A stretch of 64,000 bases of DNA. It comes from Tribonema minus. Its lineage: Eukaryota; Sar; Xanthophyceae; Tribonematales; Tribonemataceae. The number at the start of each line of letters is the position of its first letter. Positions within the stretch are counted from its first letter, which is position 1. The stretch is taken from contig JAFCMP010000521.1 in NCBI GenBank assembly GCA_017506865.1, forward strand, positions 704,632 through 768,631. The letters run 5' to 3'. A program made the position numbers and the translations under genes. The notes beneath the pieces are model-generated. The model made no database searches. It had not been told where the DNA came from and saw only the letters and a program-made list of their open reading frames with translations. Below are positions 31,777 to 53,698 of the stretch, in pieces.

Positions 31777-34166
31777 ATGAGGAACGTGGCTAAACACATC
31801 GTCGCGGGCACCTTCAATGGGAACGCGAGTGCTACGCTGTGGTTGGTGTCCTGGCTGAAGCCACTGGTCTCTCAGAAGGGCGCAGCAGATGTCAAATCTT
31901 CCAGACACTACGTGGCTTTCAGGCGATCAGCCCGGCTGCAACACCGTAGCGAGCACATCGCCTGCACTGCTCTTGTCGCTGTTGCCGTGACATGGGCGCA
32001 GGCCTGGAGCTGGCTGGACCTCGGGGACATAGTCACGTCAGCCGCTGCCTACACAGGTGTTGCTGTCGCGATATGCGGCCTGCTGCTTGCTGCTGGCTCT
32101 GCCACACCAGCAGTCACCAAGGTGGTGGACCTCTTTTGTGCCGTGGGCCTGCTGGCTCTTCCGACTATCCTTGAGGCCACAACGCACACACCCTTGCTGC
32201 TCGGCGGCGGACTGCTGGCGGGTATGGCGTTCTTGCTGCTTGCGGCCTCGCTCCGCACGGCGCATGCCACGGCGCTCTGCCTGGCCGCCTTTGCGGCGTA
32301 CGCAGCCTGCGCTCTGGCGACGCCGGACGACACCAGGCGCTTGGACTCGGGACACCGGATCCTGGCGCTGTGTGCCCTGGGCGTGCTCGGCCTCGCGGCG
32401 CTGCAGGCAGCGTGGACCCTGGACTGCCTGGTGCTGCAGGGCTACAGGGCAGCGGCGTCGGCGGCGTACATGCGCGCGGCGGCGCTGGAGGAGGCCGCGC
32501 TCGGCGACGGCATCGTCGCCGCGCAGCTGCCCGCCGCGACGTGGCGCACGCTCCTGGAGCTGCGCGGCAGCGCCGGCGGCGGCGGCGGTGGTGGGGCCGC
32601 AAGAAGCAGGCGCGCCGGCGGCGAGTCCGCTGGCGGCGCCGCCGTCAGGCGCTCGCTGACGCGGTTCGTTGGCGCCACGCGCCGCTCCACCGAGCGCCGC
32701 CTCGTGTCCATCGTCGCCGTGCGCGCGGCCGACGGCGGCGCGCTGCTGCACGCCGCCGTCGGCGACAGCAGCGGCGCCGCGGCGCTGGCCGACGCGCTGC
32801 TGCGCGAGCTCGACATCTGCCGCGAGCGCGCCGGCGCCGCGCGCCTGCCGACGTGCGGCGGCTGCCTGTACGCGGCGTGCGTCGGGCTGCCGGCGTCGCT
32901 CGGCTCCGCCGCCAACGACGCCGCCGCCGCGGTGAACTTTGCGTGCGACGCCGTCGCCGTCGGCGCCGCGCTCGGCGTGGAGGTGTGCGCGGGCGTCGCG
33001 AGCGGGCCCGCGGTCGGCGGCGCCGTGCTGACGCGGCCGCTGGCGTACCACCTCATCGGGCAGGTGTTCACGGTCGCCACGAGCCTCGCGCACCTCGGGC
33101 AGGCGGGCCAGGTGAGGTGCATGGCGGATGGGGTGCGACGGCTTTGTCGGTGTACGCTGTCGCCGGATGCGTGGCTGCGGTGGCGCGCGACACGCTCCTC
33201 AAAGTCTCCCTGCTGGCATGTCGTCTGACGTGCTGCTGCATTTGACTTGGAGTTGTACAGTGCAAACGCGGCCGCCCTGTGAGGGTCACGCTGCGCATCG
33301 CGGCCGCCGTGTTTGCCACACAGTCGCCGCGCACAATGCCCCGACGTTAGGTACGCTCTGTCCGCAGGCGGCACACATTCAATAGATTACACGCTATTCA
33401 AAAGACAAGACGCCAGTACGCCAGCCCCTACGGCAACGCCGCTCTTATGCCATAAGTACACGCCCCCGCTGCCGCCGCCGCGCGCAGGTGCTGCTGGAGG
33501 ACAGGACGGCGCTGCTCATAGAGCGCGACGCCGCGTCCGTGCTGCCAAGCAGCGCGCGCTTCGCCGCCGCCGCCAAGCCCGCCGCGCCCGGCGCCGTGCC
33601 GGGAGCCGCGGCCGCCGCCGCTGCCGCCGCCGCCGAGGAGCCCCCGCGCGTGTTCCCCCTGGTGCGCCCCGTGCAGCGCAGCTGGTGGCAGGTGGCGCGC
33701 CGCGAGGCGGTGTGCGCGGCGCTGACGACGGGGGACCCGCCGCCGCCCGTCCAAGTGCTGGGGGGATGGGGGCCCGCGGGCGGCGGCGGCACGGGCGCGC
33801 CGGCGGCGGCGTGGGAGGCGGCGGCGGCGGCGCGGCGCAGCGGTGGCGGCGACGCGCGCGAGGAGAAGGAGTACTCGCTGCTGGAGCGCGAGCGGGACGA
33901 CGGCGTCACCAGGGAGGTGTTCCTGACGCGGTTGCGCGGGCTCGATGCGGGAGACGGGTGGCTCGCGGTGCTGTTGCCGGACGGGCTCGGCGGCGGCGGC
34001 GGCGGCGGGGGGGGGGCAGGGGATGGGGCGGCGGCGGCGGGGGGGACGCTGGAGGGGCTGCGGCCCGAGTCGCGCGCGTTTCTGGCGCAGCCGTACGCGG
34101 ACGGCGCCGCGCGCGCGGACGACGTGGACCGCAGGTGGCTGCAGCTGGCATCGCCGGCGCGCTGCG
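31777..34166 (+). CDS. Cyclase-kinase exons 1-2: membrane block 1 and cyclase-like domain 1
   Basis: Exon 1 has about six hydrophobic segments between residues 60 and 222 (for example TGVAVAICGLLLAAG, LFCAVGLLALPTIL, LLGGGLLAGMAFLLLAASL, ILALCALGVLGLAAL). A class III cyclase fold follows: RRLVSIVAVRAADGG (strand 1, where active enzymes have the FADIVGFT aspartate), CGGCLYAACVGLPASLGSA, then VEVCAGVASGPAVGGAVL and YHLIGQVFTVATSLAHLGQ, finishing across the intron in VLLEDRTALLIE. The VG.ASG...GG and G...N/V.A..L patterns are conserved, but the two metal-binding aspartates and the Asn/Arg pair are not evident, so I call it cyclase-like and probably inactive. Exon 2 continues as an Ala/Gly-rich C1b-like region. 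Confidence 0.7.
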
Positions 34167-37100
34167 GTGAGGGGGACGGCAGCAGCGCTCACGTCTTGGC
34201 GTGTGTGTGTGCATCATAGGGTAGAGCAGCGGCCGGTTCGCGCGAGCAATGCAGGGCCTGAGATGCAGCACACATGGAGAGTAAAAGTCCTTTGCGGAAA
34301 GATGGTGAAGCTTGCGCTATCTGTGAAGTTTTGTACTTGAAGTAGCATGACGCGCCCCTCAGCGCTGATGTGACGAGGAAGCGCGGCCTGTCCAGGTCAC
34401 TCGACCCCGGCGCGCCGGCGCAGGCACTTGCTAGGGACGCAGGAATGCAACGGCTGCTGCGCGTGCAGAGCACTTGACTGACCGTTGCGCCGCATACGCC
34501 ATCTGCAACACGCTTTCAGCCCAAAACAGCACGTCGGGCGCACGCCTGCGAACGCCAGCCGCTGCTGTTCCGCGGTCTGCGCACCGCTTGCTCTGCCGCA
34601 GCTTTCCGCCACCTGCTCAGGCGTATCCGCCCGCACGCGCCCATCGCCGCGGCGCCGCTGCCGCCCTCGCTGAGCTGCCCTCCGTCCCCCTCCCCACCCC
34701 TGCGCTGCGCAGCGCGGCTGGCGGAGCTCAAGTCCACCTTCTACCCGCGCCTGCCGCTGGAGTGCGCGCTCGCGGCCGCGCTGCTGATCGCCGCGGTGGC
34801 GACCGCGGACTGGCCCGCGTGGCGCATTGCCGCGGCGCTGGCGCTGGGCGCCGCGGCGGCAGCGGCGGCGCTCAACGTATCGCGCGCAACGCGCCGCGCG
34901 CGCCGCCCCTCGCCCGTCGTCAGCGGCGCCAGCGCGCACGGCCGCGCTGCTGCCGCCAATGACGGCGCCCGGAAGGCTGCTCTGGAGGGCAGTGGCGCCG
35001 CTGGCGATGCGCTGGCAGACATGGAGGCCGGCGGAGCGGCAGCGGAGGCGGCGGCGGCGCCGCGGCATGCAGGGTTGAAGTCCCGCCTGCTGCCCGTGCC
35101 GCTGGCGGCGGACGTGGCGTTTGCGGCGTGCGGCGCGGCGCTGCTGCTGGTGTGCGGCAGCGGCGGCGCCGGGGACGGCGCGGAGGCGGCGCTGCTGGAG
35201 CCCGCCACGGCGGCAGCGGCGGTGCTGCTGCTGGTGGCGTCGCTGTCCAGTGCGGTGAGCGTAGCACGCGAGCGGAAGCGTCGCGTCTCATGCGTGCTGG
35301 CAGTGGACTGTTTTGACGGCGTTTTTTCTTGAATGGAACGTCACGATGATTGCGGTTGGCTCGCGATGCCGTGCCGTGCTGAGGTCGTGGGGACGACAGG
35401 CGGCGCTGTGCTCATAGCAGCAGTGGTCTGATTGCCTCGCAGCTGCTTGCTGGAGAATGCCAATCGCATTTCTCATCGAGGTTCGGCAATGCTCATTGCA
35501 CACGCGGCGCGCAGCAAACGCTGCCGTCAAACACAAACCCACGTACCGCCCCTGACATCTCAATGCCGCGCTTTCGCTCACGCCCAACATTCCACAAACA
35601 CTCACACTCAGGGTGTACATTGCCGTACGCACGGCAGCGGCGCGCAATTACCGCTGAACGCAATTGCCCCGCAAGGCCCCAACAGCCGCACGCAACTGCA
35701 GGCTCTGAATGCCGCACCACCGCTGGACTCACGCTCTCTATGCAGAGCACTGCGGCCGTCTCTCTGATACTTGCCGCCGTTGCTGCTGCTGCTGCTGCTG
35801 CTACCGCCGCCGCAACTGCGGCAGCAGCGGCGGCGGCAGCAGAGGCGGCGGCTGCTGCTGCTCCCGCTGCTGATCCTGCTGCTGACTCTGCGCCTGGCTG
35901 TTTCGCGCGCTGCGCCGCTCCGCTGCAGGCGCGCTTCGCGTCCGCGGCGCTCGCGCTGCCACTCTTTGGGGCTGCGCTCATCGCGGCCGGCGCCTTTGCG
36001 CCGGACGCCCTCGGGCCCTCCATCGCCGCCGCGGTCACCGTGGTCCCTCTCGCGCTCCTGTACAAGCGCGAGATGGAACGTCAGGCACTCAACCTCTTCC
36101 TCAGGTATATATGAACAGAGTTGTCGGGCGCCGTGCGCGCCGTGCTGTTGGTGCGGTGGATGCTTGTGGGTTGGGGCTGTGCCTCACTGCCAGCGAACAT
36201 GCAGCACGCCGCAACAGCCCATGCGCGTCTCTCCGTAGTGCAGCGGTGCTCTCATACAGCGCTGCATGCTCCGCTGCGAGCAGAACGTCGCCGCAGGGCA
36301 GTAGCTGAATTGGTTGCAGCGCTGTGCCCCCCCCTGCTGTCGTCGCTTGCGCATTACATGACACGTCGTCTCAGGGATAGGGTGACCCTGACGTCACTCT
36401 TGACTCTGACCGAGACTCTCATCAGCAGCAATGTCATCTCACCTGCGTCGCTCCCGCGCGCGCTCCGCTGCCATGTAGAGTCGACGGCGACGCCGCGGCG
36501 GCGGCGGCGGCACTGGCGCAGCAGCGGCGCGAGACGGCCGTCGCGCTCAGCGCGGCGCTGCCGCACCCCGGCCTCGCGCGCATCCTCTGCGGCACGCCGC
36601 GTCGCAGCAGCAGCGCCGGCGGCAGCGACGGCGGCGGCGACGACGCAGGGGCGGCGGCGCTCGCGAGCCCCGGCGGCAGCGGCAGCGGCGGCGGCGGCAG
36701 CAGCAGCGGCGGGCTGCTCGCGCGCGAGTCCGTGTCCGTCGTGCACGTCGCCATGCGCTCAGCGCTGCAGCTGCAAGGGCTCATCCCGCCCGCGGACCTG
36801 TGCGTCTTCCTGGACAAGGTGTTCAGCATACTCGACGGCGTGACGCGCCGCTTCGGCGGCTTCCGCGGGCGCGTGTGCGGCTGCGGCTACGTCGCCGTGT
36901 TCGGCGTGCCGCTGGGCGACGGCGCGGCGGCGGCGGCGGCGGACGGCGCTGCGGCGGCGGCAGGGCGGCCGCTGGACCACGTGCGCGCGGCGCTGGAGGT
37001 GCGGGGCACGCGCGTGCATTTGCGCGTTCGTCGAGGCGTGCTGCTGAGCAGAGCTGCTGCGTTTCGACCGTTGCAAGCACGCGCCGTCTGATGTGACGCT

Positions 37101-40100
37101 GTGTCGGGTGCCGTACGGCACGTGTGCATCTTGAACCCCGCTGTGAACACCTCCGCGGCGTCGACTCCTTCCGCTAGCTGTTGCAGCGCGTGCGCGTGCG
37201 GGCAGCGCTGCCGCAGCCGGGGTTTGGTATGTTGGCGCAGATGCAGTTGCAGAGCGCCGCCGCACCACCCAGGCGGCCTGACTGAACGTGCACTGCGCGC
37301 GCAGCGGCACGTTGCATGCGCGCGCCGCTGCCGCTCGGCCGTTCACAACAGCGTCAGTGCACTTGCTCCCTGTCACGAGATGGCAGTAATGCCTGCTCAT
37401 GCCGCCGGCTGAATGCCGTGCTGCCAGGACATTCTCCTGCCCACACGCCGTTTTCCATGGGCTGCCCACCTTGCAGGTGGCGCAGTTGCATGCGGAGCAT
37501 TGCAGCAGCTGTACTCGACCACTGCCACACGCACAGCATCGGCCTCGCCCCCCCCCCCCCCCCCCCTTCCCCCCCCCCTTCAAAGCCACTACCGCCACCT
37601 CCCCCTCGCCCCCCCCCCCCCCCCCCCCCCTCTCCTCGCTTCGCAGATGGTAGAGCTCGTGCAGCGCGAGGTCGCGCAGTTCGGCGCCAAGCACCGCCTC
37701 TCCCTCGGCCTCTGCATCGGCGTCGCGCACGGGCCGCTCGTGGCGGGCTTCGTGGGCGCCGGCGCGCACTTCGCCTTCGACGTCGGCGGCGAGGCCGTCG
37801 CCGCCGCGGCAGCGCTCGCCGCGTGCCCCGCCGCCGGCAGCGGCGGCAGCGTCGCCGCCACCACGGTGCACGTCGGCGAGGCGACGGTGGACGCTGTGCG
37901 GCGTGTCGCCGCGCACGCGGAGGTGCGCACGCGCTGGTAGGGCTAGGGCTAGGGTCGCAGTCAGCAGTGTGTGTGTTCAGTGGCGGCAGCTGCCTGCGCA
38001 CATGCGTGCCCCGCACGCCAGCGGCGCACGCGGCAAGATCGTCGCGCAGCGTGCGAAGTGACTGCGGCGGATGCCTGCGCAATGGGGCGCGCCGCCCCCG
38101 TGCCCGAAGCGTTTCATTCCGGTCCTGGAATGAGCTGCAGCCACGGCCGCTGCGGAGGCGAAGATGGGGTAGCAGCGCTCATCGTGCGGCGCACCGCGCG
38201 GCACTGATGGCTCTAGACACCGAATGACAGCGCTCGGCGTGAAGTGCCCAGCGCAGCGCTTGCACAAAGTGTGTTGGCGAGGGGTCAATTGATGCCTTGC
38301 GCCGCGTCGCCGCACACGCTGCGGTGCGGACAGCCAGTGGTAGACTCTACCTACTTGAGAATTTTTGTCCGAATGTGGCAGCGGCGCTCACCCCCTCTCC
38401 CCTCTCAACACACATATTCCCCTCCGCCGCCGTCACGCCGCCTTCGCAACTGACACATCGCACCCCCTCGCATACCCACCCGCTGCTCACCATCACGCCA
38501 ATCCCTGACAGGCGGCGGCGGCGGCAGCGCGCGCCGCCGCAGCCGAGGCAGCTGCGGCAGCGCTCGAGGACGGCTGGCGCCCCGCCCTCGGCGGCGCCGC
38601 TGCCGCCGGCAGCATTGCGGGCTCCGTGGCGGCGGCAGTGTGGGCGACAGCCGGCGGCGCCGTGGCCGCGCGCGGCGGCGACGACGACGGCGGCGCGCGG
38701 CACTGGGCGTCAGCGCTGCGTTTCGAGGAGGTGGACGGGGGGGTCGCGATGCCGACGGCGGGGCATGGCATGCGGCGCATGCGGTGAGCGGTGCGGCGCG
38801 GCGCGCCCAGCTCTCTCCGCTTCAAGCCTCTGAAGTAGGGTTGTGTGTTGAAGAGGGGAGCAGCCTGAGAAGCGCACAGTGAGAGCGACACCAGCAATGC
38901 AGATGGCGGGGCACGGCATGCGGCGCATGCGGTGAGCGGCGGGCGCCTCGAGCGGCGCAATGCGCTCGCTGCTCCGCGCGCAGAGTCAAGTCTGAGGGTT
39001 CAGGCGTCACGTCACGGCGCGCGATGCCGCAGCCTCAGTAACCCGCTGCGCCCAATGACCCGAGAGTTCACCCGTGCCCACCTGCACTTGTTGCTGTCGT
39101 CTTCGCCCGCTGGCTCTCGCTAGCGGCCACATTCCACGCCCCAGAGTGCGCAGCTGTTACGCGCCAACGCCATGCACACGCACTGACTGTACCGCCCGAC
39201 GCCCCCCGCCGCCCCCCCCCCCCCTTGTGCAGCGCGTGGCGCATGCACATCGGTGACGCCGCGAGCAACAGCCTGGACGCCGGCACGATGCGCGAGCCGA
39301 CGCTCGACGTGAGTACGCAGCTATGCGCGCGCAGCCGAGATGTGCAAGTCGCGTCGCGTGCGTGCCTCAAGCGTCCGCAGCGAGAGCGGCGCTGCGCTGC
39401 GGCGCCGCTGCGTCGATGCGCAGTGAGGGTCGCGACGGTCGCAGCCGCTGCACCGCGGGCGGGCGCGCCCCGGCGTGCGCGGGCGCGGGCGTTGACGGCT
39501 TTTGAGATGTCGTGACCAGCCTCTTTGCTGCGCCGCACCGCAGGCTGGCGCGCCTCGGCGGTCGCGGGCGCTAACGTCTTTTGAGATGTGCTGGTGGCAT
39601 CTGCTGAAGGTTGTTCTTAGATGTCGTGACCAGCCTCTGTGCGTGCAGGTGGCATCTGCCGAGACTCTGCTGAGTTGCGCAGACAGCAACTTGATCTACT
39701 GCCGATGGCAGTGCCGGTGGGTCCATCATGTAGCCTCGCGCACATGCGACACCGCCGCGGTGCGATGCGTGCGTGCATACATGGGGCACCTCGGGCGTCA
39801 CGCAAGCGCGCGCTTTGCTGCGGCAAGGAACAGCTTCTGGACCTGGTGCTGCCAGCTAGGGTAATGTGCCAAGAGCCTGTGTCTCTGTTGCAGCGCGCAC
39901 AGATTGGCTGAGCGCTGTTGTGACTGCCCATGATGGCGCTTTCGTACGTCTTTGGCACATGTGCGTGTGGGCTGCGGTAGCTGTTTCCGTCTGGCGTCGA
40001 TGCAGTGTGGCAGCAGCTGCGGCGGGCGGCGCCTGCGACTGGGTATCGCCGCTGCTGCCGCTTGCAAGCCGTTTCGGGGGCCCGCACAGCCCAATCAGCA

Positions 40101-40754
40101 AGACGCAGCACCTCAAAAAGCACGCTACATGCTTAGCAACGCATGCGTGCAGTGCGCGCCCGACGCCCTTCTGACCGCCCCGCAACTCGCTTACGCCGCC
40201 GCCGCCGTGCCGCTGCTGCCGCCGCCGCCGCGCGCAGGACTTCGACGTCGTGCGGCTGCTTGGCACGGGCGGCTACGGCAGCGTCTTCCTTGTGCGTGAG
40301 CGGCGCGGCGGCGGCGCCGCGCACGCCGTCAAGGTCGTCCCCAAGACGCGCGTCGAGGGCGTGACGGACTGGATGCGCGTGGAGCTGCGCGTGCTCGCGC
40401 GCACGCACCACCCCAACGTCGTCCAGCTCGAGTTCTGCCTGCAGGTGCGCGTTCGCGCTGTTCGCTGTTGTGTGGCGGCGCCGCGTGACGGCGCAGCACA
40501 AGAAGTACGCGCCTTGCGGCCCCGTCTGTGTAGAGCACGGTGTCATTGCGTGTGAGGGGAACGTGGTGCAGCCGCTGCGTGTGTCAAGTTCTGCCTGCAG
40601 GTGCGCGCGCGCGCGCTGCGCGCCGGTCTCGTGGCAACGCAGCGAGCGACCCAGTTGTCCTCGCTGGTTGACTGCTGCCATTGTAGAGACGAGGTCTACT
40701 AGCGCGCCGGAAGTGCGTTCCGTCAGACCGGTCAGCGCTCTTTGTTGCTGCTGC

Positions 40755-40786
<32 letters not shown>

Positions 40787-43700: not shown

Positions 43701-46700
43701 AGCACTTTCTTCCCCCTGATCATGTCCTTAGCATTCTGCGTGGGCGCAGGCGCCGCGGAGGCAGCCGCCGCCGCCGCAGCAGCAGCAGCAGCGACTCCGC
43801 CAGGCTCAGAGTGACGGGGGCCAAGTTCGGGCCACCAACGGACAGGCACGCGTGGCAGGCAGTTTCGTGCGCGTGCCGCGCCTCGTTGCGGCGCCGCGCC
43901 CGCCGTCGCCGCAGCGCGCCGAGAGATGCACCAGGACCGCCGCCGCGCCGTTCGCCTGCGCAGTTATGCGTGCATGGCAGCGTTTGCGGGCGTTCCCTCG
44001 CGATGCTGCTCGATTCCCCGTTGTTCCGTTTGTCGTGCTCACGCGCTCCGCTCCTCCCCGCGCCGCCGCCGCCGCCGCCGCTCGCGCCGCAGCGCCGCGC
44101 CACCAAGGCGACGCTGTCGGAGGCGGGGTACCGCGTGGCGGTCGCCAGCAGCAGCTCGCAGGCGCTGCAGTCGCTGCTGGGCGGGCTCCACTCACGAGTC
44201 GACCTCGTGCTGCTGGTGCGTCACCCCGCCCTCGCTGTAACCGCAATGTTGAAGTACACGTGCGTGCAGAGTAATTGTTTTTGGGTGTGCGAAGACGGTT
44301 GGGAGCGTCGGCCTCGTGCTGCTGGTGCGTCCCCCCACCCGCGCGTTTGGCCTGTAAGTGCAATGTTGAGGTACACGTGCGCGCAGAGTGGTTGATTACG
44401 GCGGTTGGGAACGTTGGGATTTCGCCGTTCAGGTGCCTATGATCAGGCGCGGTGGATGCTGTGTGTCATAACGGTGTCGTGAAAGAGTTCAGGCACAATC
44501 CGATGCAGCGCCGTGTTTGCACGGCCCGCTGACCTTCCCTTAAGGGTTAGGGTTAGGGTTAGGGTTAGGGTTAATCATCTCAAGGTGGATTCGGCGAGCC
44601 CTCGCTCAATCAGCGCTCACGCCGCCGTGCAGCGAGTGCTCACGGTGCGCGCATCAACAATTAGGGTTAGGGTTAGGGTTAGGGTTAGGGTTCATCGTCG
44701 AGGGCGTGCTCACTCTGGAAGGCATGTGAGACAGACAGCACGCGCGTAACTCATACTTCTGTCAGTCCTCTGCGTGAAAGATTGCCCCCCAAGTGTATTT
44801 GTGAGTGCCGAGAGAGAAGGCCAGGCACAGGGCCCGCCTGTTCATGGAATACACGCATGCACTGAGCGATCACAGTGCGCGTATTGACAACGAATAGGTA
44901 CGTCCTCCGCGCGCTTTGCGGCATGGTCACATAGCACAACCGGGCCTTGCGCAACGCGTGCGAACTGCGTGGCACTCGGACTCCTCGATTGCAGCCATTC
45001 ATTATTGATCGAGAAGCCAGCTTGCCGCACGTGCACCTTCTGCCTGCGTGCTCAGGCATAGCTGCGCTCCAACCTCGATGCGTGCTTGCGCGCATTCAGG
45101 GCAGTGCGCACTGGCTCTGCCCTGCAATCGATAGCGCTTGGCGGAGCGGGGCGGTGCTGTTGGTTCTCTCGTGGCAATTGGCCTCGCTGCTGCTGCGCCA
45201 GTGCCACTGCTGCTGCTGCCGGCGCCGACGCCACGTTGGCGTCGTGTCCTCCCGCGTGCGCACGTCGCCGTGCCCGCTGCACCTCAGCACCAGTGGTGGT
45301 CGCGCAGCGTGCCACTGCGACCGCCTGCTGTCGCGCATGCGCGCGCGCGTGTGGTTTTGCAATGACAGTCTCAGCTCTTCACAACTTTGAGCACAGTGTT
45401 CTCATGCTGTTGCGCGCGCGCGTGGTTTTGCTACGACAGTCTCGACTTCTTCACTGCCTTGTGTACAGTGTTCTAACGCTGTTGAGCGCTGCCGCTGCTG
45501 GTGCGCGCAGGACCCAGACCAGGGCGCGGCCGGCCGCGGCGGGCCCTCGCTGCTGTCGGAGATGCAGGTGACTGTTCTGACGCTTAGCGCGCTCTGAGCA
45601 AGCTCGTGCCACGTGCGCTGGATGTTCGCGCTGCCGCAGCACAGGCGCATCGCCTCGTGCCGCAGCCTTGAACAGACACCTGCTGCTATTTGATTGTGCA
45701 ACCTCACGCGCATTGCGTGCGGAAGGGCCGTGCTTGCCGAACGCGCACCTCCGCTGTTCCGGCAAGCGCTTTGCCGCCGCCGGCATCACACTGTCAGCAC
45801 CTCTGACCTGGCTCGTGCCCACGCTGCAGTGTTGCATTCCGCCCATGTATCACATGCGACCGCCCTCTTGGCCCGCATCCTGTGCGCTGCTGTTTCGCAA
45901 ACGCGCCCCCGCCTCAGCGCTCAAACCCCCTCCCCCCCCCCCCCCCCCCCCCCCCCCGTCGCAGACGCGCCCAACGCTGCGCCAGATCCCCGTGGTGGTG
46001 CTGAGCACTGTGGACGGCACGCTGGACGTCGCGCGCTGCCTCGCGCAGGGCGCACGCGAGTACGTCGTCAAGCCGCTGTCGCTGAGCGACGCGCACGGGC
46101 TGCGCGCGTACGGCGTGCAGGTAAGCGCTGCCGCTGCCGCTGCTGCTGCTGCTGCCGCAGGTGCGTTTGTGCAAGGGGTGAACTCTGACCCTGACCCTAG
46201 GTCGTCGTTGTCGCTGAGCGACGCGCACGGGCTGCGCGCGTACGGCGTGCAAATGAGCGTTGCTGCCGCACTCGCGCTTCTGCGAGGGACAACTCTGACC
46301 CTAACCCTAGGTCGTCGTTGTCGCTCTGCTGCTGCCGCCGCATGCGCGTTTCTGCGATGTTTAACTCTGACCCTAACCCTAGGTCGTCGCAGCCGCCGTC
46401 ACTGAGCGACGCGTACAAGCTGCACGTGTACGGCGTGCAGGTGAGCGCTGCTGCTGCTGCTGCTGCACGCGCATTTCTGCAAGGGTCATCTTCATCGCTG
46501 ACCCTAGGTCGGCACGCCCGAAAGCGCACGGCGCGCATGTCAGCGTTCGTATTTGTTCGTGTGCGGGAAGCATTCTGCCTTTGTGTACCTTGCGTGTTAT
46601 GGCGGCGCGAGAGGCAGATGCGCGCAGACCGACGGCAGGGATAAGTGGGCCTAGGACTGGCGCTTGGGTGCCCAGTAAGCCGATGGGTGCGTGGCCCCTT

Positions 46701-49700
46701 CTGCCAGGGCAGCGCTCCTGCTGCACGTGCGTGCGTGTTCTGGCAGGGAGTGCTGTCACGCGCTTGAAGTTCCTGCTTGAACTTGATACGCGCCCTCGGC
46801 ACGCACAGGTCCATGGCACGTACTTCAAACACATGCCGTTTGTGCTCTACGTGTGAAGCGTTTGGGCGCATCATGTGTGGCCGCCATTTCTGGGGCTTCT
46901 GCATGCATCGGCACCGCAGATGTGTTCGGTGCCCCCCCTCCCCCCCCCCCCCCCCCCCGCTCACACACATTGGCAGTCCTTCACACCCGCACGCCACAAG
47001 CGCCAGCTGCCATCTCCCCCCCCCTGCCCCCACGCCAACCCCCCCCGCCCCCCCTGCCCCCTCCCCCCCCGCCGCGCAGCGCCGCGCCAGCATCGCGCCA
47101 CAGCCGCCTCCCGCAGACGCCGCCGCGGAGCCGCAGCGCCCGCGCTCCTGTTCCAATGGCCAGGTCTCCATGGTGTCCACGGACGGCGGCGTGCTGGCGG
47201 TGGCGGCGGCGGCGGCTACGGCGGCGGAGCGGCGCGCGCAGCGGCGGCGGCGGCCCGGCACGCTGCGGCGGTGGGCGGGCGCCGCGGCGGAGCGCGCTCG
47301 TGCGGTTCTCGCCGCGATGGCCGCGGCCGTCGAGAGCGACGACGAGGACAGCGATGCGGGTACGTGTGTAAATTGGGGTGCGTGCATGTAGGTAGGGTTA
47401 GAGTTAGGTGCACGCGCGGTGTTGCCGCGGTGCCGGCACGCCCCTCTTGCTGCGCGCGGCGCGGCGCGTAGCGCGGCGGCTGTGCGACGGCGGCGCACGC
47501 GGAAGCGCAAACGGCATGCGCTTGCCGACGCCGCCTGCGCGGACCGCACACAGTGAAAGTGCTCAGCCCGTGGCGATCGCCCCCACGGTGCTGCTTGCTA
47601 AATCGTGCGTCCGCGTCCCTACCGCCCTCAAGATAACCCTAACCCTGACCCTAAACCTAGCCGCCCCTCTTGCCCCGCCCCCACGCGTCTGGCGTGCAGG
47701 CCCCGGCGACACGCTGCGCCGGCGCGCCGACAGGCTGCAGCAGGAGGCCGGCGAGGCGCGCGCAGACGGCGGCGCCGCTGCCGCCGCGGCGCGCCCGCCG
47801 CCGCCGCCGCAGCTCACGGCCAAGGGCATGGTCGGCACGCCCAACTACATGGCCCCTGAAGGTGTGTACGTGCGTACGGTCGCTGGCGAGCGCTGCGACG
47901 CCGCTCGCTGAGGCGCTACAGCGGCGTGCGGGCAGGGGGCTGAGCGGCGCTTCTCCCGGCGCGGCGCGCGCGCGCGCGGCGGCGCTTAAGGGCACGTGCA
48001 GGCCTTCGCGGAGGCAATAGCATAGTGTACTTGGTTGTGTCACAACAACGCTCGGTGCGCCATGTGCGTGGGCGGGCGAGCGCCTGCAAGCCCCGCGCGC
48101 GTTGCGTCGGCGCCCTGCGGAGGCTGCGGAGCGCTGCAACGCGCTGATTTGCTGACGGCGCGTGCGGCGCCGAGCCGGTGCAGACATGCACGCATATGTC
48201 ACCAACGACATCCGGTGCGCTGCAAATGTACAGCCTTGGCAGCGGGGTTCCACGCGAAGTGCCTCCAGCAGTGTGGCATGGCGTGGTGGGTAGCAGCACA
48301 GCGCGCGGCAGCGAGCAGCTGCGCTATCCCGTCTCCGCGCGCTACGCAGCGCACGGCGCAGCATCTCTCACGCACGAACGACGGCAAACAGCGGACGGCA
48401 CCCCGTGCGCGCTGTGCCTCACCGTCTCGTCGCCCGTGGCACTGAGCACGAGCGCGTGCACGCCGTGGCGCCGTCGCCGGCGGTGGCGCCGCTTGCGCTC
48501 GCCCGCTAGGCGTGGCGCTGTGAGACATTGCAGTTGTCGCCCGCAAGTGGCCGTGTGCGCGCGTTTGCTCTGACTGCAGCGGCGGCCGCGACAGCGCCTG
48601 GGGCGTGTGCCCGCCACTGAAGTTTGAACATGTGAAGTTTCACTTTTGAGTCGCCGCGGCGCCCTCGCCCGCTGCTTGTCTCACGCACGCCGCGCGTGTG
48701 CTCGCTTCTCAATGCTGCCGCAACAGTCATCGCGCAGGGGGAGTACGGCCCCGGCGTGGACTGGTGGAGCTATGGCATCTGCCTGTTTGAGGGCGCCGCG
48801 TGCTGCCTGCCGTACTCGGGGGACACTCCGGCGCAGGTACGTATTACATATTCATTGTTGGAAGGCACTTGCGGCTAAGCATCCCTTGTCATCTAGATCT
48901 CTACGATCTTTTGATTCGTTTTCATTCGAGCATATGTGTTGTGTACTGTTGGAGGGCACCGCGTTTCACGCATGTTTGAAGTACATAACTTGAAGTATGC
49001 AATTTACTTGCAGGGACATGTATATATGTTATGTACTGTTCAGGGGCGCTGCGTGCTGCCTGCCGTACTCGGGGGACACTCCAGCGCAGGTATGTGTACA
49101 CACATACCTTAACGGGCAAGAATAGTGGCGGGGACTTGTATACATGTATGTACTGTTTGGGGGCGCCGCGTGCTGTCTGCCGTACTCAGGGGACACTCTG
49201 GCGCACGTACAAAATGACGTAGATGCGTGCCGCGTTTGTGCATGCATGCTATACACATGCAGGCGTAAGTGTATACTACAAAGTACACTTGTATGTACTC
49301 TGCAGTTTATGTGTAATTGTTAGAGGGCGCCGCATGCTGCCTGCAATTCTTGGTGACATGTTTCACATGCGTGCAGCAGTTGAAGCGGAGCAGTTGCAGC
49401 ATGCAAGTCGAACTACTTGAGAGCAACACTCAAGAGCACTGGAGTTGTTTGCTGGCGGCGACTACATGCCATTGTCATGTTGGCCGCAATTCGTGCGTCG
49501 CTCGGCTGCAGTCGTCTATGCCACTTGTGTCGCCGGGGAAGGGGGGGGGGTGCCCTGCTCCTTTGCAATGAGAGCGGGCGCCACCTGCGTCTAGCCACCT
49601 TTCGTTTGTGTTCATCTGCGGCGAATATTTCTCTTCTTGATGGCTGTGTCACACGCGCACCTCGTCGTCTCTTGAAGGCCGCACAGCGCAACAGAAACGC

Positions 49701-52700
49701 GTCGACGCCCACTTTCCGTTGAACTGTGAATCGCACGATCATCGACCCCACGTCCTCCAACGCCTGCCACGCGCCCTGCAGCATATGCGGCTGCAGCCCG
49801 ACCATGCGTGCACAGCGCTGCGCCAGCAGCCCCTCTCTGTATGCTTGCTGTTGCATGCTCGCAGTATTCAGTCGCAGTTGTGCAGTCGCCATTTTCTCTG
49901 CATGCTTGCAAGCAGGATTGAACTGCTGCATGCTTACGACTGTGCAGCCGCCACGCTTTGCGTCAATCCATCTGATCACTAGTGTTCATGATCGTGACCC
50001 GGCCGTGGCTGCGGGTGTGCCAGACGTGCGCCGCGCCGCGCCGCGTCACGCGCGCAAGCTTCATCCTGCACAATGCGTCGTTCGCTTGCCCAGCCCTCCG
50101 CCGAGTACATGCCGTAATTGTCACTCGCAAGGCTGCCGCAGCGCCTCGTTGCGTTCCAGGCATCATGGCCACACCCGCCGCCGCCGCTGCCCCACGAGCG
50201 GCGCGGCCGCTGCACACCGCTGCCCCCCCCCCTCTCCCCCCCCAATCACCATCTTGCCCCCCCCCCCCCCCTACCCCCCCTCCGCGGGCAGGTCTTCATG
50301 GCCGTCAAGCGCTCGCAGCTGCCGCTGCACCAGGCGCGCGCGGCGCCGCACCTGCAGCACCTCATCGCGCGCCTCCTCGCGCCCGACGCGCACGCGCGCA
50401 TCGGCGCCCTCAGCGACGCTGCCGAGGTGACGGCGCACCCGTTCTTCGAGGGCATCGCGCGCGCGCCCGCGCCGCTGCTGCCGCCGCTCGACCTCCCCGA
50501 GATCCCCGAGGAGGCGGAGGAGACGGCGCGTCGGCAGCTGCGGCGGCGCGGCGGCGGCGGCGGTGAGTCGCGGCGGGACGGCTCTCTCGCGGCGTTCACG
50601 TTGGCGTGTTGTTCTGGGGGCTAGAGAGAGAGGGGGGGTGCGTTGCGTGCTCGCTCTGCGAGGGCATCGCGTGCGCTCCCCCTTGGCTGCTCTTGCTGGG
50701 ATGCAGCGCACGCGCAGCATGCGGCGTGGTAGCCTCTGCGGCATGGGGCGGTTTTTGGATCATCAATGGCCAGTGTGCTGCAACGCAGGGCGTGCGTTAG
50801 CATGCTACCACAGGAGACGCACAACGGCGGTAGCGCACAACGGCGGTAGGAAGTAGCATTGCATTTCGTCGCGTGTCTGCCCTACAAGTGAGGGCAGCAT
50901 CTGACCTTAACGCCGTGAGAGGAATGACATTCCGTGCCTGAGCACTGCATCTTGCGCTGCTGCATCTGCACAGCAGACAGCACTAGAGCCTCACGACATC
51001 TCCAATTGCATGCCTTGCCAGCAGGGCACAATGGCCACGCGTCCTAACCGCGGGGCGTCATGACGATGAGTCGCTCACTGCCTCGCGGAGGCCTTAATCA
51101 TATCTTCCTGCATGCACGGCGACACACTTCATGCTGCATTGCGTCGCGCGCATGCGCTCATGCGCGTGCCGCCGTACGTACACTTCTATGCCTGCAGGCG
51201 ACGCCGCCGACGCGGACCCCCTGACGCTCTTCTACAGCTCCGCCGGCGCGCGCCGCCGCGCCGCCGCCCGCGCCCACTCGTTCAGCACCGCCGCCGCCGC
51301 CGCCGGCAGGCCTCAGAGCCAGCAGCAGCAGCTCCTGTCCCTGCGGCACTCGGGCGCGCTGGCGGCGGCGGTGATGGCGGCGGCGCCGCCGCAGCCGCCG
51401 CAACCGCCGCCGCCGGGGTCACTGCCGCCGCGCGGCGAGGAGTACGCGGGGCTGCTCGGGCCGTATGTAGGCGCGCCGGCGTGGGCGGGCGCGCCTGCTG
51501 CTGCCGCGGCGCGCAGCAGCGCTCCGCATGTGCATGGCAGCGGCAACGGCATTAGCAGCAGCGGCGGAGCGGCGGAGACGGCAACGAAGCGCAAGCTCGC
51601 GGCACTGGCGCGCATCGAGGGCATGCGCCGGCCGGTGGACGGCCGCGTGGCGACGCCGGCGGAGGCAGCGGCGGCGTCGGAGAGCGCGCAGGTGGGCAGC
51701 AAGCTGCGCACGGTGCTGCAGGCGCGCGCGTCGCAGCGGCGGCGGCACGGGCCCGGCTTCGACGGCGCGCAGCCGCCGGCGCCGCCAGCAAACCACAACG
51801 GCCACATGCATACCCCGTTGGCTGCGGCCGCCGGCGGTTCGGTAACTGCCAGCAATACTCAGCGCGCGCCGCGCTGGGACGGGCAAGCTTACAACGTCGG
51901 CCCTGCTGCGGCGCACGGCGGCGGCCTCATGGCGGCGCGCCAGCCCGCCTCCCATGCGCAGGCGCCGCCGCCGCCGCCATCGCTGCCGGTGCCGCCGCCG
52001 TCTTCGGAACCGGACGGCCGCAGCCCGAGCTTCTCGCAGCTGCCGGAAGGCGCGCGCGTGCGCGAGCAGATCCTGGAGCGCGCCGCGCAGCGCGGCCTCA
52101 GCAGCGCCGTGACGGCGCTTGCGCAGCACCGCAGGCAGCAGCAGGAGCGGCTGCGCGCGGCGGAGGGGCGGCGGGGCGAGGCGGCGGGTGCGGCTGCAGG
52201 TAGCGGCGCTGCGGGGCAGCCGACTGGCGGCGTGGCTGGCGGCGTGGCTGGCGGCGGCGGCGGCACTGGCAGGGCAGGCGGCGGCGCAGCGCAGTCCGTG
52301 AGCCAGCAGCACCTGCAGCGCGCGGCGGTGATAGCGCAAGCGCGGTCAGTCGCGGAGAAGCAGCGGCAGCAGCAGCAGCAACAGTCGACCTGGCAGCAGA
52401 GTGCGCCGCCAGCATGGCCGCACAACGGCACGTCATCTCCCAACAGTAATGCCATGGGAGACGCTGCCGCGGCAGCGCAGGAACAGCAGTACTCTGACCA
52501 GCACTCGTCTGACACGGACGCCCGAGCTGTTGTGCATGAGCGGCAGCTGTGGCAGCACAGGCAGGCACCGCCCGCTGCCATCGACAGTGCCCGCAGGCCG
52601 ACAGAGCACAAGACCCAGGGCCAGCAAGGAGCAGCTGCGGGCGTTTTTGCGACTGCCAATGTCGAGCAGCAGCACCAGCGGCAGCCTCCGCCCTCAGGCG

Positions 52701-53698
52701 TGAGCGCTGTCGCAAGCATGCAGCTGCAGCGGCAACGCCCTGCTGACGCTGGTGTCAGTGCTGTCGCCAATACGCAGCAGCAGCACCTGCAGCGCAAGCC
52801 GTCCGCGGGCGTGAGCGCCGTCGCGAGCATGCAGCTGCAGCGGCAGCAGCCCGCTGTCGCCGGTGTCGCAGGCGCGCAGCCACAGCCGCCGCCCCAGGCC
52901 GGCGCGGTGGCTGCTGCTGATGCCAGCGCACATTCGAATGCAGACCGCCATTCACCTCTGCACAGTCAGCGACAGCCACACTCTGCTGACGCTGCTGACG
53001 CTGGCTCTCTCAGCGCGATGATAAGCGCGCGGCAGCGGTCGCAGCCCGCGCCGCTCGGCGCCACTGTGCACATCAGCGAGCAGCAGCAGCACGGACAGAT
53101 GCAGCAGCCGCGCACGCTGCCGCCGCCACCGCAGCAGCAGGGCACCCCACAGCAGAACGGCAGCGGCGCGCCGCGGCGGCCCAGCGCGGCTTCGCCGCCG
53201 CCGCCGCTGCATGCGCCGCCGCCGCTGCAGCAGCCGCCGCCGCCGCCTGCCGACAAGGTCCCGCCGCTGCAGGGCGTGACCCTGCTGAAGTCGGTGGGGT
53301 CCTATTCAGAGGACTTGACGCCCGCTTACCAGCAGCCGAGCCGCCAGGACGACTCGAGCAGCTACTACGGGCGCCTCTTTGGCGGCGACGCCGCCAGCAG
53401 CGGCGCCGCCGGCGTTGGTAGCCTCGTGGGCCTGGGGCTCGGCCTCGGCAACGGGCGGGACGCGGGCGCGAGCGAGCGTCGCGGCAGCGGCGGCGGCGGC
53501 GGCGGCGCCGCGGCGGCGGCGGCGGCGGCAGCGGCGGGCGCGAAGCGGCCGGAGCTGGAGGAGGGCGCTTCGTCGCGGTCGTGGGGCGCGACGTCGGATG
53601 ACTCGTGGGAGCGCACGGAGACGCTGCTCGCGGCGCAGCTGTACGAGCGCGCGGAGGGCCAGGTGTTCACCGAGATTGCGGCGCTGCGCCCGCACTGA
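31777..53698 (+). CDS. Giant transmembrane cyclase-like / receiver-containing Ser/Thr kinase fusion (21 exons, 2828 aa)
   Basis: Exons: 31777-33111, 33488-34166, 34713-35254, 35746-36104, 36479-36998, 37647-37922, 38512-38783, 39233-39308, 40238-40444, 41369-41481, 42289-42363, 42666-42860, 43493-43670, 44093-44215, 45511-45567, 45965-46120, 47080-47359, 47700-47861, 48727-48836, 50292-50562, 51198-53698. All phases agree and the total is 8487 nt. Order: membrane block 1 (about residues 60-222), cyclase-like 1 (308-460), membrane block 2 (675-965), cyclase-like 2 (1005-1237), linker, AGC-like kinase (1354-1980) with a REC domain (1597-1721) between DFG (1498) and APE (1868), then a low-complexity tail. 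I infer a membrane signalling protein that may couple a two-component phosphorelay or a ligand of the cyclase-like domains to a Ser/Thr kinase. The start is the first ATG of the exon 1 frame and an upstream exon is possible. Two genes instead of one is the main alternative, but the phase continuity across 37922-40238 argues against it. Confidence 0.8.
34713..36104 (+). CDS. Cyclase-kinase exons 3-4: membrane block 2
   Basis: Exons 34713-35254 and 35746-36104 encode further hydrophobic segments: ECALAAALLIAAVATADW, IAAALALGAAAAAAALNV, VAFAACGAALLLVCGSGG, TAAAAVLLLVASLSSA, AVSLILAAVAAAAAA, ALPLFGAALIAAGAF and SIAAAVTVVPLALLYK. An Ala/Arg loop separates the second and third. With six to seven segments between two cyclase-like domains, the layout copies that of animal membrane adenylyl cyclases. 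Hydrophobicity is judged by eye and Ala-rich segments may not all be membrane helices. Confidence 0.65.
36479..37922 (+). CDS. Cyclase-kinase exons 5-6: cyclase-like domain 2
   Basis: Exon 5 (36479-36998) gives SVSVVHVAMRSALQLQG, PPADLCVFLDKVFSILDGVT and RGRVCGCGYVAVFGVPLG. Exon 6 (37647-37922) gives LGLCIGVAHGPLVAGFVGAG and FAFDVGGEAVAAAAALA. This is the standard order of a class III cyclase: helix with a PP..L..FL...F...D motif, a GY.AVFG.P strand, IG.A.GP...G..G, then FDV.G..V..A. In active enzymes the second strand carries IGDAYMA; here Gly-Asp is replaced by CGCG. The distal Asn-x3-Arg is also absent. Either the pair is non-catalytic, or the fold serves as a nucleotide sensor. Confidence 0.7.
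37886..38345 (+). repeat. Echo of exon 6 border in intron 6
   Basis: The exon 6 end and donor (37886-37940, GCGGCGTGTCGCCGCGCACG then GAG|GTGCGC...TGGTAG) recur degenerately at 38287-38342 (GCGCCGCGTCGCCGCACACG then GGTGCGG...TGGTAG), about 400 bases downstream. Confidence 0.65.
38750..38945 (+). repeat. Echo of exon 7 border in intron 7
   Basis: GGCATGCGGCGCATGCG|GTGAGCGG at the exon 7 end (38765-38790) recurs almost perfectly at 38917-38941, including the intact donor. Confidence 0.8.
40238..42860 (+). CDS. Cyclase-kinase exons 9-12: kinase N-lobe through DFG
   Basis: Exons 40238-40444, 41369-41481, 42289-42363 and 42666-42860. The Gly loop is GTGGYGSV, the ATP lysine is in HAVKVV (residue 1385), the helix-C Glu is in WMRVELRVL, the hinge is YVFMEYIRGCTL, the catalytic loop is VIHRDVKPDN (Asp 1480) and the magnesium loop is LKLMDFGLAK (Asp 1498). 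All catalytic residues are present. The motif set resembles AGC kinases of the Rim15/IRE/Greatwall type, which also have long inserts after DFG. An acidic Ser/Gly-rich stretch begins directly after DFGLAK. Confidence 0.85.
40430..40990 (+). repeat. Echo of exon 9 border and internal duplication in intron 9
   Basis: GTTCTGCCTGCAG|GTGCGCG at the exon 9 end (40431-40451) recurs exactly at about 40589-40609. A separate imperfect duplication links 40640-40735 to 40905-41010 (shared GGTTG..TTCTGCCAT and TCGGTCAGACC blocks). Confidence 0.75.
40739..40800 (+). repeat. Trinucleotide repeat in intron 9
   Basis: An interrupted run of TTG/CTG triplets with a GATGATGATG block, about 60 bases. Confidence 0.8.
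42984..43063 (+). repeat. 36-bp tandem repeat in intron 12
   Basis: AAGCGCTGCCCGTGTGTAAT then GACGTCGCGGCGCG is followed directly by AAGCGCTGCTCGTGTGTAAT then GACGTTGTGGCGCG. Confidence 0.8.
43493..46120 (+). CDS. Cyclase-kinase exons 13-16: response-regulator receiver (REC) domain inside the kinase
   Basis: Exons 43493-43670, 44093-44215, 45511-45567 and 45965-46120. The receiver reads PIRIMVVDPDAAA (acidic pair), LSEAGYRVAVASSS, VDLVLL|DPDQG (phosphoacceptor Asp 1651, split exactly by an intron), GPSLLSEMQ, IPVVVLSTVDG (Ser/Thr 1683-1684) and CLAQGAREYVVKPLSL (Lys 1705). Every key residue of a working receiver is present. The 43493 border uses the AG in TCCCGTCAG; a second acceptor 14 bases upstream (43478) would shift the frame and lose the domain, so alternative splicing there would matter. 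Confidence 0.8.
44196..44395 (+). repeat. Echo of exon 14 border in intron 14
   Basis: CCTCGTGCTGCTG|GTGCGTC at the exon 14 end (44203-44222) recurs exactly at 44313-44332. The following intron sequence (GCAATGTTGAAGTACACGTG) is duplicated as well, giving a tandem unit of about 110 bases. Confidence 0.8.
44540..44574 (+). repeat. Interstitial telomere-type array (TTAGGG)
   Basis: Five consecutive GGGTTA units within intron 14 of the cyclase-kinase gene. Confidence 0.95.
44661..44692 (+). repeat. Second interstitial telomere-type array (TTAGGG)
   Basis: Five TTAGGG units, 85 bases after the first array, same orientation and same intron. Confidence 0.95.
46064..46515 (+). repeat. Tandem echoes of exon 16 end joined by CCCTAA motifs
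   Basis: The exon 16 end (GACGCGCACGGGCTGCGCGC then GTACGGCGTGCAG) recurs at 46199-46252 and, more diverged, at 46383-46440; a shorter piece lies at 46303-46330. Each copy starts with GTCGTC right after a telomere-like CCCTGACCCTAG or CCCTAACCCTAG. The 46383-46440 copy is bounded by AG and GTGAGC like a cassette exon of 58 bases. Confidence 0.8.
47080..50562 (+). CDS. Cyclase-kinase exons 17-20: linker, activation loop APE and kinase C-lobe
   Basis: Exon 17 (47080-47359) is a basic/Ala linker. Exon 18 (47700-47861) ends in the activation loop KGMVGTPNYMAPE. Exon 19 (48727-48836) continues VIAQGEYGPGVDWWSYGICL and FEGAACCLPYSGDTPAQ, joining as APE|V with a split codon. Exon 20 (50292-50562) holds HLIARLLAPDAHARIG and VTAHPFFEGI, the standard end of a kinase C-lobe. 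The T-x-x-Y-x-A-P-E loop suggests phosphorylation of the loop Thr. The distance from DFG to APE is about 370 residues. Confidence 0.85.
47631..47660 (+). repeat. CCCTAA-type motif before exon 18
   Basis: ACCCTAACCCTGACCCTAAA lies 40-70 bases before the exon 18 acceptor (47699), where a branch point is expected; CTAAC fits branch-point consensus. Confidence 0.75.
48781..49359 (+). repeat. Four-fold echo of exon 19 end in intron 19
   Basis: The exon 19 end (GGGCGCCGCGTGCTGCCTGC then CGTACTCGGGGGACACTCCG and GCGCAG|GTACGT) recurs at 49042-49093, 49159-49210 and, decayed, at 49320-49359. The preceding TGTACTGTT spacer is repeated too. The 49042-49087 copy is bounded by TTCAG and GTATGT, so it could be spliced as a 46-base exon that would break the frame. 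Confidence 0.85.
48850..48937. repeat. Dispersed repeat, copy 1
   Basis: ATTCATTGTTGGAAGGCACT then TGCGGCTAAGCATCCCTTGT and CTCTACGATCTTTTGATT match the reverse complement of 55165-55245. It is AT-richer than the surrounding gene and is probably a short transposon relic in intron 19. Confidence 0.65.
51198..53698 (+). CDS. Cyclase-kinase last exon: 832-residue low-complexity tail
   Basis: Single exon after a CCTGCAG acceptor, open to TGA at 53696-53698. It is rich in Ala, Gln, Pro, Gly and Ser. A motif VSAVASMQLQRQ occurs twice (near 52705 and 52810), with a related VSAVANTQQQHLQR between them, an internal repeat of about 20 residues. The last 45 residues are more complex and possibly conserved (SWGATSDDSWERTETLLAAQ, then LYERAEGQVFTEIAALRPH), like the C-terminal tail of AGC kinases. 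Most of the tail is probably disordered. Confidence 0.75.

Follow-up and report, generated by a model that had tools for sequence, protein, structure and literature searches.

A Candidate Membrane-Bound Ser/Thr Kinase Combining a Degenerate Adenylyl-Cyclase-Shaped Module With a Receiver Domain in the Activation Loop

The Locus and Its Gene Model

The window analyzed here comprises the final 64 kb of contig C518, which belongs to a eukaryotic genome of 158 Mb in 554 contigs. Between positions 31777 and 53698 of its forward strand, a run of exons has been found that can be joined into one open model, assembled from open frames and from the sequence at the junctions. It consists of 21 exons and 20 GT-AG introns with fitting phases throughout, contains no internal stop, and translates into 2767 aa. 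The first-pass annotation had described a phase-consistent 21-exon gene of 2828 aa, of which the ATG at 31777, the stop ending at 53698, and the number of exons have been recovered, but the length has not, as the two proteins are 61 aa apart. The region is GC-rich, and several introns carry a long C-rich tract at their end. Along the modelled chain, the order 6TM-C1-6TM-C2-kinase(REC)-low-complexity tail is distributed over the exons as follows:

E1, 31777–33111, + strand: start codon, first membrane block (~6 predicted helices, aa 61–213), a long helix, and the start of the C1-like domain
E2, 33488–34166, + strand: end of the C1-like domain and linker, joined in phase 0
E3, 34713–35254, + strand: second membrane block, predicted helices 1–4 (hydropathy, aa 685–849)
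E4, 35929–36104, + strand: second membrane block, predicted helices 5–6 and the next helix (hydropathy, aa 858–897)
E5, 36479–36998, + strand: N-terminal part of the C2-like domain (PF00211, 33.1 bits together with E6)
E6, 37647–37922, + strand: C-terminal part of the C2-like domain (PF00211; acceptor ranks 2 of 1367)
E7, 38512–38783, + strand: Ala/Gly-rich linker exon whose phase fits on both sides; weakest exon of the model
E8, 39233–39308, + strand: linker just 5' of the kinase, containing ATG 39243 (acceptor ranks 5 of 1367)
E9, 40238–40444, + strand: kinase N-lobe with glycine loop, AVK lysine, and alpha-C glutamate (PF00069)
E10, 41369–41481, + strand: kinase hinge region (PF00069; acceptor ranks 3 of 1367)
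E11, 42289–42363, + strand: kinase catalytic loop HRDVKPDN, the Asn codon being split with E12
E12, 42666–42860, + strand: kinase DFG motif and beginning of the activation-loop insert (PF00069)
E13, 43493–43670, + strand: insert with receiver beta-1, VVDPD (PF00072 in the joined piece)
E14, 44093–44215, + strand: receiver alpha-1 to beta-3 (PF00072)
E15, 45511–45567, + strand: first codon is the predicted phospho-acceptor Asp (weak acceptor, rank 175 of 1367)
E16, 45965–46120, + strand: receiver beta-4/beta-5 with Ser/Thr and Lys (PF00072; acceptor and donor both rank 1)
E17, 47080–47359, + strand: low-complexity part of the insert, uncertain (phase fits; acceptor ranks 4 of 1367)
E18, 47700–47861, + strand: end of the insert and GTPNYMAPE motif
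E19, 48727–48836, + strand: kinase C-lobe with DWWSYG motif
E20, 50292–50562, + strand: end of the kinase C-lobe
E21, 51198–53698, + strand: Gln/Pro/Ala-rich tail of ~830 aa in an open frame, and stop codon

For comparison, the genome itself, Pfam, NCBIfam, PDB sequences, and published papers have been used. As part of the best explanation of the locus, the gene is proposed to be nuclear and to come from a photosynthetic eukaryote; the genome contains 92 matches to light-harvesting proteins. Two of these light-harvesting pieces have Euglena polyproteins as their best matches, followed by chains that bear the cryptophyte names ACPI/CAC or are of mixed types.

The introns of this region show a peculiarity of their own. 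At four of the six junctions tested, the tail of an exon and its donor (~40–60 exon bases plus some intron bases) have been copied into the following intron at 75–91% identity. Such copies lie at 38273–38331 after E6, at 38894–38953 after E7, at 46206–46269 and 46380–46511 after E16, and at 49036–49353 after E19, where one 36-base piece ends before the donor. Decoy splice sites might arise from them. Two short TTAGGG arrays have been noticed in an intron (44543–44573 and 44661–44692), and the stretches 48854–48921 and 55181–55297 are 87–88% identical to part of contig C268 (L036) and probably represent a dispersed repeat.

Coding Potential and Gene Prediction

Codon log-odds have been trained on 3566 codons taken from 20 other kinase stretches of the genome, two of which are near-identical. 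With these scores, the modelled frame outscores the other five in 20 of 21 exons, including those of the membrane blocks and cyclase-like domains; the sole exception is E13, where one reverse frame scores higher. The in-frame score falls below zero in four exons (E7, −6.7; E13, −0.4; E17, −9.7; E21, −87.5); the modelled frame is still the best of six in E7 and E21 despite these negative values.

The same codon scores, together with generic hand-entered splice weights, have been used in a Viterbi gene finder at nine penalty settings. One gene has been returned in six settings, and two, three, and five genes in one setting each; cyclase and kinase halves are joined in eight of the nine. The one-gene models reach 1613–1725 aa as compared with 2767, because low-complexity exons are trimmed, with E1, E3, E6, and E21 shortened or split. 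These four exons agree with our model in one or both outer ends; E3, for instance, has the same start and ends at 34876. Nine exons (E2, E4, E5, E9, E10, E11, E16, E19, and E20) are identical to the model in all settings, followed by E8 and E12 (eight settings each), E14 (seven), E13 (six), E15 (three, at low intron penalty), and E18 (two as a whole; its 3' part in six), while E7 and E17 have been returned in none. Three alternatives offered by the gene finder have been left aside: the split 31777–31828/32114–33111, which breaks up an open exon, an exon at 46393–46440, which sits in a repeat copy of the E16 boundary, and an exon at 46809–46856.

One Gene or Two

A single transcript would span all exons of the model. 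The weak link of this arrangement is the interval of 37.9–39.3 kb, within a doubtful stretch that extends to 40.2 kb. Two possible ends of E6 keep the phase, 37922 with E7 as the next exon and 37936 with E8 as the next; left unspliced, E6 runs to a TAG at 37938–37940, and E7 to a TGA at 38785–38787, immediately past its donor. The exons could accordingly belong to two neighbouring genes, a degenerate transmembrane cyclase that terminates at one of these stops and a receiver-containing kinase that starts at ATG 39243 or in an unseen 5' exon. Both stops and the ATG are present, and one of the nine gene-finder settings splits the locus in precisely this way, ending at 37940 and restarting at 39243 with E8 taken from the ATG. 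The absence of E7 from every setting and the three settings without a single gene also speak against the one-gene model; where two or three genes are returned, the locus is broken within the kinase insert and not at 37.9–39.3 kb. On the other side, a polypyrimidine acceptor is located 10 bases 5' of ATG 39243, and as this site (39233) ranks fifth of the 1367 AG sites scored, an exon upstream of E8 is likely. Furthermore, the donor of E7 and the acceptor of E8 are in matching phase, and the other eight gene-finder settings connect E6 to E8. The boundaries of E6 and E7 recur in the following introns just as do those of E16 and E19, where homology fixes the donor; this mildly favors the view that the donors of E6 and E7 are used. 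Weighing these observations, we regard two separate genes as rather unlikely.

The Cyclase-Like Module

In the joined N-terminal 1176 aa, Guanylate_cyc (PF00211) is the sole Pfam family, recognized in two stretches with 48.8 bits (E 8e-13; cut-off 21.9), and none of six shuffled controls (three per domain) has given a PF00211 match. Scored separately, the C1-like domain reaches 23.8 and the C2-like domain 33.1 bits against the same cut-off. The stretch in E1 stays below it alone and exceeds it once joined to E2, and none of the eight single exon pieces scanned passes a Pfam cut-off, so that the domain calls depend on splicing. In PDB, C2 finds class III cyclases as its best matches (the mycobacterial-type adenylate cyclase 4p2m, E 1.4e-8; AC9, E 6e-5), while C1 is matched best by nucleotide cyclase domains (the rhodopsin-cyclase 5oyh, E 9e-4). 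The likeness between C1 and C2 is weak (BLASTP E 0.008). A single-sequence structure prediction of E1 has come out all helix with a mean pLDDT of 43.5, and thus gives no support for a cyclase fold of C1.

The membrane helices have been predicted from hydropathy at a threshold of 1.6. Five peaks above this value are found in block 1 (aa 95–213), preceded by a sixth of 1.36 at aa 61–79, and six in block 2 (aa 685–897); three further peaks above 1.6 lie within folded domains. The blocks and domains follow the order 6TM-C1-6TM-C2, with 5–6 plus 6 predicted helices, and the chain would cross the membrane in two blocks.

The active-site residues have been read by eye against the PDB alignments and against cyclase exons on contig C115 of the same genome, metal-1 by motif only, as it lies outside the printed alignments. 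The C115 exons retain an active site with FSD at metal-1 and TIGD at metal-2, followed by TINTASR. At the same positions, C1 reads AVR, TCGG, and VFTVATS, and C2 reads HVA, VCGC, and AVAAAAA. Both domains are thus devoid of the two metal Asp and of the active-site Asn and Arg, which leaves none of the four metal and transition-state residues in either of them. In the base-binding site of C2, the Asp is kept and the Lys is replaced by Arg. With all four gone, cyclic nucleotide is unlikely to be produced by this chain, and, judged by these residues, the protein is probably not an adenylyl cyclase in function, as a defining catalytic feature is missing. The expectation that cyclic-nucleotide, two-component, and Ser/Thr kinase signalling are joined in one protein is therefore supported for the kinase with its internal receiver and unlikely to hold for cyclic-nucleotide production.

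The Kinase, Its Receiver, and the Tail

The second half of the chain contains the complete AGC-like kinase that had been claimed for it. With the insert left out, it scores 189.3 bits (Pkinase cut-off 31.7), and the glycine loop, the Lys, the alpha-C Glu, HRDVKPDN, DFG, and APE have all been located by eye. On this basis, it is apparently an active AGC kinase. DFG and APE are separated by an insert of 365 residues, and the receiver domain lies inside, with 55.3 bits for REC against a cut-off of 30.2. When the insert is retained, Pkinase is found in two stretches (173.4 bits), the first of which extends to aa 177 of the piece (position 151 of the 263 in the profile), and Response_reg appears with 50.7 bits at 269–379 of the piece. 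Guanylate_cyc, Pkinase, and Response_reg thus all exceed their cut-offs in the translated model, and Pfam together with hydropathy supports the domain order proposed earlier, in which two units of membrane block and cyclase-like domain are followed by a kinase with an internal receiver.

Provided that E15 is right, the receiver possesses the predicted phospho-Asp, the Ser/Thr, and the Lys, as read by eye. The acidic pair reads D-P-D (VVDPD), so that Pro takes the place of the second acidic residue; as the phospho-Asp, moreover, is the first codon of the weakly supported E15, the domain may be a pseudo-receiver. Histidine kinase domains have been matched 22 times and Hpt domains twice, weakly, in the assembly, and some of these may be on contaminant contigs.

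The best PDB match of the kinase is Greatwall (5loh, 165.9 bits), only 2.2 bits ahead of AKT2 (163.7), and chains of AKT2, RSK, and S6K all rank above the other Greatwall chain, 8v5h (159.9 bits). By the place of its insert, the kinase probably belongs to the MAST/Greatwall branch. Pfam has reported neither DUF1908 nor PDZ in the kinase part or the tail, and no family at all in the tail encoded by E21. A search of the genome for Endosulfine has given no match, and equally none of 14 controls has been detected by it. In the kinase part, the portion scanned with NCBIfam, TIGR03903 has been matched with 59.2 of 705.75 bits, far below the cut-off.

Relatives Within the Genome

Searches of the whole genome with PF00211 and PF00072 have given 4 matches, all on C115 and none in the window, and 51 matches, none on C518, respectively. 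The window is missed by both, because each of its domains is split among several short exons. The C1 exon, E1, finds only itself and one weak match in the genome; this match, on C268 (29% identity, 3 stops, E 0.001), is absent from the tblastn search with E1 and has been treated as chance. With the kinase as query, 143 matches have been scored, which comprise six of its own exons, a partial copy on C216 (92%), and others of 25–53% identity. The C216 copy (L033, 3166–5221) covers E18–E20 including the introns, with 68–88% identity over the aligned exon bases. Two bases are missing from its E19 and longer pieces from its E18 and E20, whereas the window copy is open, and, to judge from these lesions, it is a decayed segmental duplicate of the 3' half of the kinase. 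No second instance of the whole architecture has been seen in this genome in exon-by-exon searches, which could miss a diverged copy.

Two observations concern the assembly itself. Paired matches on contigs C90/C179 and C223/C144 have near-identical scores and spacings, which suggests uncollapsed haplotypes or duplicated contaminant contigs. psaA/psaB are represented by only 11 short fragment matches scattered across contigs (L029, L030, L031), as in nuclear copies of plastid DNA.

A decayed kinase copy elsewhere in the genome, taken together with the lost cyclase residues, could indicate that the locus is itself a non-functional fusion or a pseudogene whose cyclase half is decaying. We consider this improbable, as 2767 codons are free of stops, codon usage favors the modelled frame in nearly every exon, those of the membrane and cyclase part included, and the kinase motifs are intact. 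Still less credible is a module that has kept its cyclase activity by means of an unusual active site, in a chain that both makes cyclic nucleotide and carries a kinase: its family is that of class III cyclases and C2 has kept one base-binding Asp, but the four metal and transition-state residues retained in the C115 exons are gone from C1 and C2 alike.

Comparison With Known Systems

Class III cyclase domains share a chain with a kinase or kinase-like domain, as here, in the bacterial TOMM kinase/cyclase (TIGR03903) and in animal receptor guanylyl cyclases. In these proteins, the kinase part precedes the cyclase. The two predicted blocks of ~six helices, with a class III cyclase domain after each, are shared with the mammalian transmembrane adenylyl cyclases (tmACs) AC1–AC9 and with Rv1625c/Cya; compared with AC1–AC9, the present protein has lost the catalytic residues in both domains, and its chain continues into a kinase. 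In tmACs, a helical domain continues TM6 and TM12 (PMC9433096). The order of membrane blocks and cyclase domains had been presented as that of animal tmACs; the order is supported, but it is not confined to animals, as a tmAC-like two-domain layout has been described for the Dictyostelium guanylate cyclase and for the Toxoplasma ATPaseP-GC (PMC6592433). The latter resembles our protein further in that the tmAC-like layout is fused to another enzyme; it differs in that this partner is a P4-type ATPase instead of a kinase and in that guanylate cyclase function is ascribed to the Toxoplasma protein (PMC6592433).

Among kinases, Greatwall/MASTL and MAST likewise belong to the AGC group and have an activation segment interrupted by a long insertion (PMC11961639). 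The Greatwall insert of ~550 aa is described there as non-conserved; its place is occupied here by the 365 residues with the receiver domain. A survey of MAST kinases mentions a T-loop insertion, and the terms receiver, response regulator, Rim15, and cyclase are all absent from its main text (PMC12024977). Fungal Rim15 also unites a protein kinase and a receiver in one chain; its receiver is C-terminal (PMC8510515), whereas here it lies between the DFG and APE exons and a membrane module is added. No such fusion appears in the available portions of kinome papers on Ostreococcus and Phytophthora. In line with the first-pass annotation, which named no such protein, none with this domain order has appeared among the papers listed in a topical literature search.

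Proposed Function

From the domain order of the model, the kinase motifs, the receiver between DFG and APE, and the loss of the cyclase residues, all read in the sequence itself, we slightly favor the interpretation that one gene encodes a membrane-bound Ser/Thr receptor kinase, composed of a dead tmAC-shaped sensor and a receiver-gated AGC kinase. The two membrane blocks of ~six helices, each with its cyclase-homology domain, would form a tmAC-shaped module in one chain. As the cyclase sites are dead, this module would act as a sensor: it would respond to a ligand or to the state of the membrane and set the geometry of the C1-C2 pair, much like TM6/TM12 and the helical domain of adenylyl cyclases. 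From C1-C2, this change would pass to the AGC kinase adjoining C2. The receiver in the activation-loop insert would supply a second input, in that phosphorylation of its Asp, or the binding of another protein, could move the insert and thereby switch the kinase. The further-reaching view, by which the whole membrane and catalytic scaffold of a tmAC has been turned into a pure sensor-transducer that drives an AGC kinase gated by a receiver in its activation loop, is put forward more tentatively, as somewhat less likely than not.

The role of the large membrane domain of adenylyl cyclases has been called an open question (PMC12414865). If the further-reaching view is true, the protein would show directly that the membrane domain of a tmAC is able to serve as a receptor by itself. 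In a tmAC layout that lacks catalysis and possesses a kinase, sensing would be uncoupled from cyclase activity, and the sensor role could be tested via the kinase readout. The receiver within the activation segment, finally, would provide a route by which two-component phosphate may gate a Ser/Thr kinase directly.
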